This document shows, in pieces, positions 52,129 through 57,316 of a stretch of 64,000 bases of DNA (position 1 is the stretch's first letter; each line of letters begins with the position of its first letter). The position numbers were made by a program, and so were the translations under genes. The stretch is from positions 1,302,001 to 1,366,000 of the forward strand of contig NZ_CP117268.1 of NCBI RefSeq assembly GCF_007000325.2. The letters run 5' to 3'. A model generated the notes under the pieces. The model saw nothing but the letters and a program-made list of their open reading frames with translations, was not told where the DNA came from and ran no database searches. Source of the DNA: Rhizobium rhododendri. Lineage in GTDB: Bacteria > Pseudomonadota > Alphaproteobacteria > Rhizobiales > Rhizobiaceae.

Positions 52129-53349
52129 CTAGTTGCGCCAGTCCGCCGCCTTGCCGAATTCATTAACGGGCAGCGTGGCGCCGAACGTCCAGATGCGTGG
52201 GCATTCCACTTCTGAAAGCCGCTGCCTGCACCACGTCTCGAGATCGGATGAAAGTTCCTCTTCGGCACAGCTCGAAACGGGGACGACGAACGCCTTCAGG
52301 CGAGCGCCGGCCGGCATCTGCGCGACGCGCACCGACGCCGCCTGTACCTTGGGATGCTGCTCCAGCACGGCCGCGATACGCTGCGGCCAGACATTTATTC
52401 CACCGATCTGAACGGCGCCATCGCGCCTGCTGCCGACGGTAAACGCCCGGTCGGTTATCCTCTCGATGGTGTCGGGAACATCATGGACCGCTCCGTCCAA
52501 ACCGCGCAGCCTCACGCCCGCAGCGACTTCCCCGCGGTCATTTTCGAAACTCCAGTGCGGCATCAAGGTGTATCGGTCGGATGGATGCCGGCGCCAGCCG
52601 ATCCCCGCCGTCTCGCTCGATCCGTAGAGTTCGGTCATGCCGCCAAGCCCGCGATCGATCAGGGACGTCATCAGCGGAGCGGGGCATGGCGCGGTAGACA
52701 CGACACCTTCGACGTCGGCGACCCAGGTGGAGACAGTGCGATCGATTGCCGCCCACCTGTCTGGGAAGGAGACGACAAGGTCTCCCGGCAACAGCCCGTT
52801 GTTCAGAAATCGTGGAGATGAGGTCGCGCCGGAGATGACATCCACAGAAAGCCGGTCGGCGAGGAAGGCAGTCAGCAGGCAACCGTAGATGTGATGTGCC
52901 GGTGCAAGCGCAATGATGCGGCGGCGCGAGGTGAAAAGGCCGGCAAAAAATCCAGCCTCCCCGTTCAGCACAGCAGCGCCATGCACGCATCTCTTCGGCA
53001 GGCCTGTCGAGCCCGACGTCAGGAAGGTCATCTTCGAAACACCGTCCGCCCAGGCGGCCTCGATAGCATCGAGCCAATCGCCGAACGTGTCCATTGCGGT
53101 CGGATCGAGATCCTGCTCGCCTTCGTAGAGGTGAAACATCTCGTTGATGGCAGACCCGACCATCATCATTTCCAGCGAATCCAAGCCAAGGCCTGCGTTG
53201 TCGTCGCGCCCCATGGACAGGTCCTCGGACCATGACCCCGCAGTGGAGGCTCTCACGCTGCGGGCTCCGCTTGACCGGTTTCTCGCGCTCTTCACCTCCG
53301 CCTCGATCAGGCTTTGCAGAACGCGGGCAGTCGCAGCGCGGCTGAGCAT
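52129..53349 (-). CDS. pcl: 4-coumarate ligase of the PYP-activating type, with N-terminal carrier-like domain
   Basis: A 406-residue adenylate-forming enzyme, shorter than plant-type coumarate ligases (about 550) and close in length to the PYP-associated ligase family. Residues 1-100 contain a carrier-protein-like helix set with GLGLDSLE (Ser58 in the phosphopantetheine-type DSL position). Then come the AMP-binding P-loop TSGSTGLPK (111-119), YGSSETAG (242-249), the hinge-region RRDGAVQIGGINVWP and the catalytic Lys400 in NEFGKAADW. It should activate p-coumarate for attachment to the PYP cysteine. It follows the cyclase gene by 5 bases and is the last gene of the leftward pyp operon. An unrelated acyl-CoA ligase is the alternative, made unlikely by the neighbours. 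Confidence 0.82.
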   Translation of the reverse strand: MLSRAATARVLQSLIEAEVKSARNRSSGARSVRASTAGSWSEDLSMGRDDNAGLGLDSLEMMMVGSAINEMFHLYEGEQDLDPTAMDTFGDWLDAIEAAWADGVSKMTFLTSGSTGLPKRCVHGAAVLNGEAGFFAGLFTSRRRIIALAPAHHIYGCLLTAFLADRLSVDVISGATSSPRFLNNGLLPGDLVVSFPDRWAAIDRTVSTWVADVEGVVSTAPCPAPLMTSLIDRGLGGMTELYGSSETAGIGWRRHPSDRYTLMPHWSFENDRGEVAAGVRLRGLDGAVHDVPDTIERITDRAFTVGSRRDGAVQIGGINVWPQRIAAVLEQHPKVQAASVRVAQMPAGARLKAFVVPVSSCAEEELSSDLETWCRQRLSEVECPRIWTFGATLPVNEFGKAADWRN

Positions 53350-53354
53350 GAGGA

Positions 53355-54665
53355 TCAGGCCAACACGGTTTTCATAGGTGCGGATTCCGTCCGGTTGCGG
53401 CCCGCGCGCTTGGCCCTGTAGAGCGCTCCGTCGGCAGCGGCAAGCAGTGCTGCCGCACTTCCGACTGACAAGGGACCGGCTGCACAGCCGAAGCTTGCCG
53501 TAACCTTCAGCAGCGAATCTCCGACACTCACGGGCACGGAGGCAATGGCGATCCGGACGCGCTCGGCGATTTCGACCGATTCCTCCAGAGACGTGTCGGG
53601 CAGGAGGATTGTGAATTCCTCGCCGCCGATGCGCGCAAACGTGTCGCCGGGCCGCATCATTGTCTGGCATGCGTTGGCCACCGAACGCAGCACATCGTCG
53701 CCGACGCTGTGGCCGTAGCTGTCGTTGATCAGCTTGAAGTGGTCTATGTCGAACATGAGGATGGCGAAGGATCGTCCGGAGCCGCGACTTAGCACATACT
53801 CTTTTTCGGCAGCTTCGAAGAACGCACCGCGGTTGTAGGCGCCGGTGAGGTGGTCGGTTCGCAACAGCCGCTTGAGTTCCAGCATATCCGTGTCACGCCG
53901 CTCCACCTTGCGCATGATGACGGTGTATCCCTGGATCGACGTGTCGCTGCCAGCCGTTTTGTCGGCGCATACGGCGATGAGGCTCTGGCACCAGTAACGC
54001 TCGCCGTCGCGTCGCAGGCCCCAGCCTTCGTCGATATGCCAGCCGTCCCTTCGTGCGTGTTCGAGGCGACGGTCCATATAGGCCCCCTGTCCGCCCGGCT
54101 GCGGCTCGACCAGATCGCCAATCGGCATCCCCTCCAACTCGAACGCGTCGAAGCCGGTCTGCTCCAGAAGGGTGGAATTTACCGCATCGATCACGCCATC
54201 CGTACCAAGCGATGCGACGCCGAAATCCTTGACACCCTCCAGCAGCGACCCGAACCACGTCTCGGCTTCCCTCAGCCGTCGCTCCTGGCGGACCTGAAGC
54301 GACACATCGGTCAGCGTCACCACGTAACGCTCGTCCTTCAGCTTGACGATGGTGCAGTTCAGGATGCGCTGCTCGTCGGGCTTGTCGGCGGCTATCGGCC
54401 CAGCGTAAATGCGGTGGTTATCGCAAATCGTTCCCCGCCTGCCGGCAAAATCCTGGATCAGCGAGCGCAATTCGGGAGCCGTGTTTTCAAACACCGTCAG
54501 CAAGTTTGTCATGATGCCGTCTGTCGCCAGCGGTATGACGAGTTTCATGGCAAGCGGGTTCATCAGGTTTATCGCGCCGTCGCGCGCCATGTCGACAAGG
54601 CCGACGGGACATGCGTAGACGAATTGCAGAAGCTTTTCGTATTCGATCTCTTGCGACTGTTCCAT
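53355..54665 (-). CDS. PAS-PAS-GGDEF diguanylate cyclase in the pyp operon
   Basis: A 436-residue cytosolic protein: a first PAS-like domain (about residues 5-130, LLQFVYACPVGLVDMARDGAINLMNPLAM), a second PAS (135-260, FGVASLGTDGVIDAVNSTLLEQTGFDAFELEG) with a PAC segment, and a GGDEF domain. The active site reads FARIGGEEFTILLP and the inhibitory site RPGD is five residues upstream, so it should make cyclic-di-GMP under product feedback. The start is 12 bases after the pyp stop, with only 5 bases to pcl, placing all three in one transcript. It is the likely output partner of the photoreceptor. Confidence 0.9.
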   Translation of the reverse strand: MEQSQEIEYEKLLQFVYACPVGLVDMARDGAINLMNPLAMKLVIPLATDGIMTNLLTVFENTAPELRSLIQDFAGRRGTICDNHRIYAGPIAADKPDEQRILNCTIVKLKDERYVVTLTDVSLQVRQERRLREAETWFGSLLEGVKDFGVASLGTDGVIDAVNSTLLEQTGFDAFELEGMPIGDLVEPQPGGQGAYMDRRLEHARRDGWHIDEGWGLRRDGERYWCQSLIAVCADKTAGSDTSIQGYTVIMRKVERRDTDMLELKRLLRTDHLTGAYNRGAFFEAAEKEYVLSRGSGRSFAILMFDIDHFKLINDSYGHSVGDDVLRSVANACQTMMRPGDTFARIGGEEFTILLPDTSLEESVEIAERVRIAIASVPVSVGDSLLKVTASFGCAAGPLSVGSAAALLAAADGALYRAKRAGRNRTESAPMKTVLA

Positions 54666-54677
54666 GACGGTGCCCGA

Positions 54678-55058
54678 TCAGCGCAGTATCAGAATGTATC
54701 TCAGCGCCAAATCCGACCCTTTCAGCAGGCGAAGCCGAACAGGGGTGGGACGCATACGCAATGTCAGGACATAAGGAATGATGTCGTCGATCTGATCTTC
54801 GTCCTCGAACCGTTGCGCGACCAGAAAATTATTCATGCACTGGGCAATTTCATCGAAAAAGTCCGAACCCAGGACGGTTTCCCGACGAAGCCCGGCAAGA
54901 GATGATTCCGTCGCATTATAGCGTTCGACGATACCGTCTGCATTGAGGCCGACCACCCCGAATGCGAGGCTGTCGAACGTCGTGTCATCCATCTTTTCCA
55001 GAGCCAGCCCAGAAATACCTTCGAACGAAGCCGTCACCCTTGATCCCCACTCTGTCAC
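54678..55058 (-). CDS. pyp: Photoactive yellow protein (PYP) homologue
   Basis: A 126-residue PAS-fold protein that aligns with Halorhodospira halophila PYP from LEKMDDTTFDSLAFG onward with a constant offset of 5 through the chromophore site. The residues that hold p-coumaric acid are kept: Tyr47 (Tyr42 in PYP), Glu51 (Glu46) and the thioester Cys74 (Cys69, in FFDEIAQC). Tyr96 and Met102 match Tyr94 and Met100 after a 3-residue deletion. Thr50 and Arg52 are replaced by Ala55 and Leu57. The length equals the 125-residue family norm. No ATG is available; GTG at 55058 or GTG at 55037 must be used. First gene of the operon with the cyclase and ligase. Expected to be a cytosolic blue-light sensor. 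Confidence 0.88.
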   Translation of the reverse strand: MTEWGSRVTASFEGISGLALEKMDDTTFDSLAFGVVGLNADGIVERYNATESSLAGLRRETVLGSDFFDEIAQCMNNFLVAQRFEDEDQIDDIIPYVLTLRMRPTPVRLRLLKGSDLALRYILILR

Positions 55059-55262: not shown

Positions 55263-57053
55263 TCAAGCCGACCGATAAGTGTCGCCGGTGGCAGCCAGAC
55301 TCTTCTGCTGCGAATCATGCCAGCGTTCGAACTCGCGAGGCTTCAGCGGCTTTGCAAAGAGATAGCCCTGCGCCTCGTCGCAATGGATGCCGGCAAGAAT
55401 GTCCCGGGCTTTCCTGGTTTCCACACCCTCGGCGACGACGCGGTAGCCGAGGTCGTGGCTGAGGGAAATCATCGATCGCACGAGGTTGCGCTCGCGCGTT
55501 CCGTCTTCCAGGTTTCTGATGAAGGACCGGTCGATCTTGACGACGGTTGCCGGCAGCAGCTGGAGATAGGACAAGCTGCTGTAGCCGGTGCCGAAATCAT
55601 CGATGGAGAGACGGATGCCGGCCTCCGCCAGAGAGCGCAGCTTTTCCATTGCCTTTGCCGCGTCCTTCATGATCGAGCTTTCCGTCACCTCCAGCTCCAG
55701 CATCTCAACCGAAATTTCGTGGCGACGCAAAGCAAGACCGACCTGCTCGGCAAAGTCTTCCTCTTCCAGATTGGCTGCAGAGACGTTGACGGACAGCGGC
55801 ATATGCAGGCCGGTGTCCTTCCAGGCCCTTGTCTGGCGAAGGGCGGCATCCAGAACCCAGGCTGTCATTTTCCGCACATGCGGCGAATGCTCGACGATCG
55901 CCACAAACTCGCCGGGCGAGACGGCGCCAAAGTCCGGGTGGCGCCAGCGCAACAGCACTTCGGCCGCCACGCAGCGACCACTTGCAAGATCTATGCGCGG
56001 CTGGAACACGACCGACAATTGATTGTCTGAATCGAGAGCCGTGCCGAAATCCTCCAGCAACCGGAAGGCGCGTTCGTGCTTGGCGTGGCTGGAGGCCGAA
56101 AAAAGGCTGACCCGGGCCTCGATGCTACGTGCATCCTGGGCGGCACTGTTCAATTGCTGCAAAAGTTCCGCCGGGATGATTTTTCTGGCGATAAACGGCG
56201 CAACACCCATCACCGGCGTCATCACGAACCTGAGGCTCAATCCAGCTTCGATCTGCGCCAGCATAACGCCAAGTCTGGCAAGATATTTTTGTTTTCGGAC
56301 CGCTTTCGGAGCGATGAAAGCGAATTGCGTCGATGACACGTGATAGGTGGTTCTTGCGTGGCCGAGGGACAACCGGATGATCCGTCCGGCCTCCCGAATG
56401 CAGGTGTCTACATGGGCCGGACCCATCACCCGCGCGAGCGTATCGATCTGCGCGCTATCGGCAAGATCGACCAGAACGGCAAAACGTTGAAGCCCGCTGG
56501 CATCGTCCAGTACGAGGTCGGAAAGGTCGTCGAAGAACTGCACCCGGTTTGGCAGACCGCTGATCGGGTCGATCCGGCCGATGGAATGCTGCAGTTCGAT
56601 TTGCGACATTACCATCGCGGCGAGGTCCCGCAAGCCCGAAAGCTCTTCCTCCGTCGCGGTGCGCGGCTCCGTTCCAAGGACGCAGAGGGCGCCGAGGCCG
56701 TGCCCCTCGCGCGTTATCAAAGGGGCGCCGGCATAGAAGCGAATGCCGCTTTTGCCAAGAACGCTTTCCCGGTAGCAACTGTCCCCTGCCATATCCGGAA
56801 TGACCAACAGGTCCTTGGATTCCGCCACTTGCGCGCACGGCGCGCGATCCCGAGGAATGGAGTCGTGATCGACGCCGACGCGGGATTTGAACCATTGCCG
56901 ATCGACGTCTGTCAGTGACACGGCAGCGATCGGTAGATTGAAAATTTTGCTTGCCATTCGCGTTATGCGATCAAAATTTTCACTGGCTGGCGTATCGAGA
57001 AGCCCGAGATTGTATAGCGCCTCGAGGCGCTCTTGCTCTGTTGAGTTTGTCAT
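55263..57053 (-). CDS. GAF-degenerate GGDEF-EAL cyclic-di-GMP phosphodiesterase
   Basis: A 596-residue cytosolic protein: N-terminal GAF domain (about residues 20-160, FNLPIAAVSLTDVDRQWFKSRVG to GHGLGALCVLG), a degenerate GGDEF domain (165-320, the active site reduced to VSSTQFAF) and a complete EAL domain (335-580). EAL catalytic motifs are present: AAEVLLRWRHP, SVNVSAANL, LELEVTESS, IDDFGTGYSSL, VKIDRSFI, VVAEGVET and QGYLFAKPL. It should degrade cyclic-di-GMP, with the dead GGDEF as a possible GTP sensor. It lies upstream of pyp on the same strand, 204 bases away, giving the locus both a cyclase and a phosphodiesterase. Confidence 0.9.
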   Translation of the reverse strand: MTNSTEQERLEALYNLGLLDTPASENFDRITRMASKIFNLPIAAVSLTDVDRQWFKSRVGVDHDSIPRDRAPCAQVAESKDLLVIPDMAGDSCYRESVLGKSGIRFYAGAPLITREGHGLGALCVLGTEPRTATEEELSGLRDLAAMVMSQIELQHSIGRIDPISGLPNRVQFFDDLSDLVLDDASGLQRFAVLVDLADSAQIDTLARVMGPAHVDTCIREAGRIIRLSLGHARTTYHVSSTQFAFIAPKAVRKQKYLARLGVMLAQIEAGLSLRFVMTPVMGVAPFIARKIIPAELLQQLNSAAQDARSIEARVSLFSASSHAKHERAFRLLEDFGTALDSDNQLSVVFQPRIDLASGRCVAAEVLLRWRHPDFGAVSPGEFVAIVEHSPHVRKMTAWVLDAALRQTRAWKDTGLHMPLSVNVSAANLEEEDFAEQVGLALRRHEISVEMLELEVTESSIMKDAAKAMEKLRSLAEAGIRLSIDDFGTGYSSLSYLQLLPATVVKIDRSFIRNLEDGTRERNLVRSMISLSHDLGYRVVAEGVETRKARDILAGIHCDEAQGYLFAKPLKPREFERWHDSQQKSLAATGDTYRSA

Positions 57054-57316
57054 GGGAAATCTGTTCAAGCTGACGCTCCAATGCGTCTGATCACAAGCTA
57101 ACACCTGTCGATTATCGATTACAGAAGAAAGCATATCTTATTTTAACAATGTGCCAGATGAGGCGCTTCACCGGCAATTCCAAGCATTTCATCGCCTATT
57201 GGCCTTGCTCCGGCCTGTCGGCGCCGGAGCCGCCGTTCCCTCGATGTTCGATACAAACGCTTTTGCTTTGCCGACAAGGCTGCTAGAGGGCGGCGTTTTG
57301 AAGCAAGGAAAAGATT

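Follow-up and report, generated by a model that had tools for sequence, protein, structure and literature searches.

A probable clade C photoactive yellow protein shares an operon in Rhizobium rhododendri with a diguanylate cyclase and a ligase whose N terminus looks like an acyl carrier protein

Introduction

Does a plant-associated Rhizobium carry a blue-light sensor together with the enzyme that loads its pigment and the enzyme that would pass on its signal? The question is raised by three adjoining genes of Rhizobium rhododendri, located in a window of 64,000 nucleotides (contig NZ_CP117268.1; positions below count from the first base of the window). The original prediction took them for a self-contained sensor, built around a photoactive yellow protein (PYP) and wired to cyclic-di-GMP.

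Clade C of the PYPs was defined by Xing, Gumerov and Zhulin in 2022, who noted frequent GGDEF neighbours and stated that no member had been characterised (PMC9664959). Genes for the PYP-type p-coumarate ligase (pCL) adjoin at least 30% of functional PYP genes according to the same source. In a 2025 survey of 113 predicted pyp operons, GGDEF is listed for 29 and pCL for 42, and operons with GGDEF, EAL and pCL are already published (PMC12826048). Since clade C–GGDEF pairs and pyp–GGDEF–EAL–pCL operons have both been described, the arrangement studied here belongs to a known type. A PYP from Rhizobiaceae was not found in the literature: the only paper listed for PYP together with this family deals with circadian clocks, and the string 'Rhizobi' occurs 0 times in the main texts of PMC9664959 and PMC12826048.

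Results

Layout and genomic setting of the locus

The three genes lie on the minus strand in the order pyp, cyclase, ligase, separated by gaps of 12 bases (54666-54677) and 5 bases (53350-53354). Coordinates, strand, lengths and gaps were all exact in the original prediction when rechecked. The features are:

55263-57134, minus strand: GAF-GGDEF-EAL phosphodiesterase gene upstream of pyp (Pfam EAL 230 bits, GAF 56.5, GGDEF 25.4; position kept in R. tumorigenes)
54678-55058, minus strand: PYP homologue, 126 residues from GTG 55058 or 119 residues from GTG 55037 (TIGR02373, PDB matches, AlphaFold model and fold searches)
54837-54839, minus strand: codon of Cys74, counterpart of the chromophore-binding Cys69 (alignments; Cys in 91 of 91 relatives, partly by construction of the set)
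53355-54665, minus strand: sensor-type diguanylate cyclase, 436 residues (conserved N-terminal region, PAS, GGDEF with GGEEF and RPGD; census of relatives)
52129-53349, minus strand: PYP-type p-coumarate ligase, adenylate-forming, 406 residues (TIGR02372; Pfam AMP-binding and AMP-binding_C; model pLDDT 92.2)
53038-53349, minus strand: acyl-carrier-protein-like domain spanning about 104 residues at the ligase N terminus (PDB profile search, lowest E 1.3e-4; Pfam PP-binding not reached)
53176-53178, minus strand: codon of ligase Ser58, candidate phosphopantetheine site in Asp57-Ser58-Leu59 (no exception in alignments of 60 and of 55 ligases; opens predicted helix 58-71)

The PYP may start at GTG 55037 instead of GTG 55058; this codon, 21 bases downstream, matches the RefSeq start of the R. 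tumorigenes orthologue. In nucleotide comparisons the locus matches chromosome 2 of Rhizobium sp. L51/94 (L059) with 99.56% identity across 18,321 bases, and an R. tumorigenes plasmid (L049) with 90.2% across 18,375 bases. Both R. tumorigenes plasmids carry a counterpart of the GAF-GGDEF-EAL gene in the same place.

The small protein is a PYP homologue

TIGR02373 (photoactive yellow protein) matches the 126-residue protein with an E-value of 3.4e-19 and 69.1 bits, below its curated cut-off of 143.05; the model covers about 20% of PYP homologues (PMC9664959). Identity to three canonical PYPs is 27-28%, and alignments to these and to PDB sequences give Tyr47, Glu51 and Cys74 as the counterparts of Tyr42, Glu46 and Cys69. 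In profile, sequence and structure searches the protein resembles PYP more than any other kind of PAS domain. An ordinary PAS domain was considered and rejected on the TIGR02373 match, the PDB matches and the fold searches of the AlphaFold model. Thus the predicted PYP homologue with intact chromophore residues is borne out by profiles, structure and conserved gene order, and the profile and structure searches of 54678-55058 did not place it in an ordinary PAS family without PYP.

Relatives were collected by a genome scan, in which 262 were found and 80 kept, and from a plasmid collection, where 11 of 12 records with relatives were examined (one was unannotated). This gave 91 PYP open reading frames, including the own copy (L001), the near-identical L059 and the two R. 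tumorigenes plasmids. The pocket residues are conserved in 90 of 91 (Tyr), 91 of 91 (Glu) and 91 of 91 (Cys), the invariance of Cys being partly built in because the patterns of the genome scan included CMNN and LTLRMR; the plasmid relatives were found without these patterns. As for the marks of clade C, Phe92, Phe96 and Trp119 are not kept (Ile94, Leu98 and Tyr121), while Met100 is kept (Met102). Leu98 and Met102 are each present in 90 of the 91 relatives. In a tree of 87 rows, built from few columns by a quick method, a long branch with an SH-aLRT of 99 separates the divergent PYPs from the canonical and fused PYPs. Judged from its sequence, the protein is likely a light-sensing PYP homologue of the known clade C.

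Five loci (L053, L054, L055, L057 and L260) hold PYP homologues that are labelled 'phosphonate transporter' in public records, a mislabelling also noted in PMC9664959. Canonical and divergent PYPs stand side by side in Indioceanicola (L056:3507-8652), Caballeronia SBC1 (L054:7001-11430) and Pandoraea eparura (L114:9010-14318); all three loci carry a pCL gene, and that of Indioceanicola also an ammonia-lyase gene.

Gene order is conserved and the operon is rare in Rhizobiaceae

In 87 of the 91 PYP loci the next gene downstream, on the pyp strand, encodes a cyclase (exceptions L057, L071, L135 and L136), and this adjacency ruled out chance gene neighbours. An EAL gene is present in 63 of the 91 loci and a ligase gene in at least 64, a lower bound because L001 and L038 are short stretches. 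The order PYP–cyclase–ligase also occurs in Methylobacterium, Sphingomonas, Devosia, Salinisphaera and Terriglobus.

Among 394 sampled Rhizobiaceae genomes the operon was found in one, that of R. rhododendri itself, in addition to the two R. tumorigenes plasmids. TIGR02373 matches 24 of these 394 genomes at E<=1e-3; the 23 besides the own genome are counted as other PAS domains because they score at most 28.6 bits and lie in frames of 246 to 1,140 residues. At the level of the order, 10 of 397 genomes have a PYP-family match of any kind at E<=1e-8, and at that of the class 9 of 385, the own included. The ligase is also rare, with matches at E<=1e-45 in two of 398 genomes of the phylum, one being the own. 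From this rarity, the simplest reading is that the operon was probably acquired by transfer.

The cyclase has intact catalytic and inhibitory sites

The GGDEF domain of the cyclase scores 161.2 bits and contains the GGEEF and RPGD sites. Of the predicted PAS-PAS-GGDEF architecture, the GGDEF domain and one PAS domain (best stretches 148-256) hold, but the second PAS has no counterpart in Pfam: the N-terminal ~128 residues gave no Pfam match, and their likeness to PAS in hhalign is weak (E 0.0046 and 0.0037, Prob under 10; control 0.18). Residues 1-128 are strongly conserved in 85 relatives, including two cysteines; this region is a candidate docking site for PYP. The 87 adjoining cyclases of relatives carry GGEEF in 82 cases, GGDEF in one and neither in four (in the open reading frame as retrieved), and in 45 of 83 an RxxD motif occurs with the expected spacing.

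Many PYP–cyclase pairs are accompanied by a small EAL protein that stands alone and has a C-x-G-C motif near its N terminus (for example L104:10012-10803 and L123:3360-4145). The 49 such proteins found, eight of them inspected as sequences, have intact catalytic motifs in nearly all cases and differ from the GAF-EAL protein of the R. rhododendri locus.

The ligase is of the PYP type

The predicted compact adenylate-forming enzyme is a PYP-type ligase by TIGR02372 and by Pfam AMP-binding and AMP-binding_C. Its residues 2-401 match TIGR02372 (4-coumarate ligase) with E 2.8e-78 and 263.3 bits, below the cut-off of 334.7, which is exceeded in two of 50 relatives' genomes. The own genome holds one PYP match and one pCL at family strength (262.9 bits), the next best pCL match scoring 36.4 bits.

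Of the 79 other kept loci, the genomes of 50 were surveyed for pCL, counted at 188 bits or more. Thirty genomes contain one, 11 have matches of only 97-143 bits, and in nine no match reaches E<=1e-25. For 22 of the 30 pCL genomes, a PYP-family search at E<=1e-8 finds the divergent PYP alone, which is therefore the only visible client of the ligase there; the remaining eight have a further PYP-family match, and in three cases this is a canonical PYP that exceeds the cut-off. The other 20 of the 50 genomes encode a divergent PYP with Tyr, Glu and Cys kept and no pCL of 188 bits anywhere, so that the cysteine could serve something else there. These genomes speak against a strict link between ligase and PYP.

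The ligases of 97-143 bits were tried as substitutes for pCL in these 20 genomes and set aside, because those examined lack the carrier-like domain described below and two of them seem to sit among pigment-type genes. In three of the 11 (L202, L203 and L204), and in the second match of a pCL genome (L205), the pCL profile aligns only from position 108 or later. From reading the surrounding open reading frames, we take the neighbourhoods of L202 and L203 to be pigment-type genes, and the 97-143-bit matches themselves to be putative aryl-polyene/xanthomonadin-type AMP-ligases. Ligases of this type, such as ArcT, are also adenylate-forming on hydroxylated aromatic acids (PMC3949708); unlike the R. 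rhododendri enzyme, the four weaker matches examined (L202-L205) have no carrier-like domain.

The N terminus of the ligase looks carrier-like

About 105 residues precede the nucleotide-binding loop of the ligase. Asp57 and Ser58 within them are two of the 18 invariant columns in 60 aligned ligases, and are likewise invariant in the 55 of those used for the model. The consensus of the carrier-protein attachment motif is D-S-[LIM]. This motif occurs in every one of 70 full-length ligases (in 60 by pattern search, in 10 by reading the sequences), a set that includes the own copies of the R. rhododendri locus, takes in ligases beside canonical PYPs (L039-L042, L047, L054, L056 and L058) and leaves out three short ligases; four ligases outside the set have it too (L142, L143, L148 and L259).

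A profile of the domain retrieved 103 PDB sequences up to E 10. Among the best 60 of these, E-values begin at 1.3e-4; by name they are acyl carrier proteins or mitochondrial carrier subunits, plus SDAP1, SDAP2 and one 'putative uncharacterized protein'. The three alignments inspected are in register at the serine. Aligned by hhalign to 26 carrier-protein rows (own AcpP twice), the ligase N terminus gave E 4.4e-4 with Prob 14, against E 0.46-0.9 for four controls. Pfam PP-binding (PF00550) was not reached: the R. rhododendri domain matched 0 families at E<=10, and six of 55 members matched, with a best E of 0.013. The whole-ligase model (pLDDT 92.2) has predicted helices at 4-25, 58-71 and 89-101, the second starting at Ser58. 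Fold searches with the whole chain as query listed adenylating enzymes only and no carrier protein. On these comparisons, PYP ligases resemble an acyl carrier protein over their first ~100 residues. Among six papers listed for PYP and acyl carrier proteins (of seven found), titles, abstract openings and passages of PMC3992019 describe no such domain in pCL.

Source of p-coumarate

Three ammonia-lyase relatives are encoded in the own genome. The ASG triad forms the usual ammonia-lyase cofactor, and the H-L motif marks tyrosine ammonia-lyase (TAL). The first relative has an S-H motif and an intact ASG, and the open reading frame in front of it is, by our reading, presumably hutI; the second has S-H and no ASG, and the third neither. 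The two without the triad lie at C4:272203-273645 (L140) and C1:459555-460982 (L141). The H-L motif of the TAL query is in none of the three own relatives. Matches to this one query at E<=1e-40 occur in 10 of the 30 pCL genomes, and H-L in one (L246) of 21 matched proteins from 34 genomes. In the control, four canonical-PYP genomes, the same test also missed H-L (S-H types only in three, no match in one), so that TAL was dropped as a distinguishing mark, and its lack may be only apparent. Substrate specificity is not predictable from sequence alone (PMC3992019). The 'self-contained' part of the prediction is thus not supported, no recognisable TAL being present in the own genome by a test whose control failed. 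Since a clear TAL is lacking, p-coumarate may come from outside, from plant or soil.

Discussion

We propose, with a probability of about 0.72, that this is a clade C PYP operon in which the ligase loads the PYP and blue light acts through it on the adjacent cyclase. From family likeness and motifs, the ligase would adenylate p-coumarate, perhaps of plant or soil origin, and pass the thioester to Cys74 of PYP, its presumed client. Blue light would isomerise the chromophore, as in the PYP family, and the changed PYP would act on the sensor half of the neighbouring cyclase, altering cyclic-di-GMP synthesis and with it attachment or motility. The upstream GAF-GGDEF-EAL phosphodiesterase is likely the counter-player of the cyclase, opposing it as conserved gene order suggests. 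Of the predicted wiring to cyclic-di-GMP, the genetic link is supported by conserved gene order, but control of the cyclase by PYP is an inference.

The operon resembles published systems in part. Like clade C PYPs (PMC9664959), the protein is single-domain, has the Tyr42/Glu46/Cys69 counterparts, does not keep Phe92, Phe96 and Trp119, keeps Met100 and adjoins a GGDEF gene; Burkholderiales are stressed there, whereas here a Rhizobium has its own pCL in the operon. PYP also adjoins a GGDEF protein in Idiomarina loihiensis, where light control of biofilm has been proposed, but that PYP is of clade A, and the present operon combines the divergent clade with a ligase gene (PMC9664959). The Halorhodospira halophila pyp–pCL–TAL operon likewise unites pyp and pCL; here the operon has no TAL, and the cyclase gene stands between pyp and ligase (PMC12826048).

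Two other readings of the operon were weighed. The PYP fold and its reactive cysteine might sense redox state or another ligand in place of light; the ligase would then serve a different product or be a relic, and the cyclase would still be regulated. The 20 of 50 genomes that keep the same residues without a true pCL fit such a sensor, and redox sensing has been proposed for certain other PYP homologues in which Cys69 is lost (PMC9664959). Yet the chromophore pocket retains Tyr and Glu along with Cys, the ligase gene shares the locus in at least 64 of 91 cases, and in 22 of 30 pCL genomes no second PYP is visible that the ligase could serve; we consider a non-light sensor unlikely. If instead the PYP senses light but signals to something other than the adjacent cyclase, the genes would only travel together as a light-response island, as the four of 91 loci lacking a directly following cyclase would allow. 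Adjacency in the other 87, across several phyla, and conservation of the cyclase N-terminal region across 85 orthologues make this quite improbable.

For the ligase the choice is closer. Its N-terminal domain could be a remodelled part of the adenylating enzyme and no carrier. The ligase would then release free p-coumaroyl-CoA, which is the published view: pCL joins p-coumarate to CoA (PMC12826048), and FlxY, another bacterial 4-coumarate ligase, gives 4-coumaroyl-CoA in vitro (PMC3992019). Pfam PP-binding is not reached, the hhalign Prob is only 14, and VIA alignments to ordinary ligases start at residue 1 in most of the best 50 rows. Against this stand the invariance of Asp57-Ser58 in 60 of 60 ligases, the carrier-protein profile in register at the serine (E 1.3e-4) and the predicted helix pattern in which Ser58 would open helix 58-71. 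We put the odds of a remodelled enzyme at about even. More tentatively, at somewhat below an even chance, PYP ligases, canonical and clade C, may be self-loading: adenylated p-coumarate would pass to phosphopantetheine on their own N-terminal carrier domain (Ser58 here) and directly on to the PYP cysteine, and in this Rhizobium the acid would come from the plant, making the pigment host-dependent.

The carrier-like domain is a more surprising point than the operon arrangement. If it is real, the accepted attachment route, from free p-coumaroyl-CoA to apoPYP (PMC12826048), would need revision across the PYP family. The operon itself, with sensor, loading enzyme and cyclase together, offers a small system in a plant-associated bacterium for testing the uncharacterised clade C.
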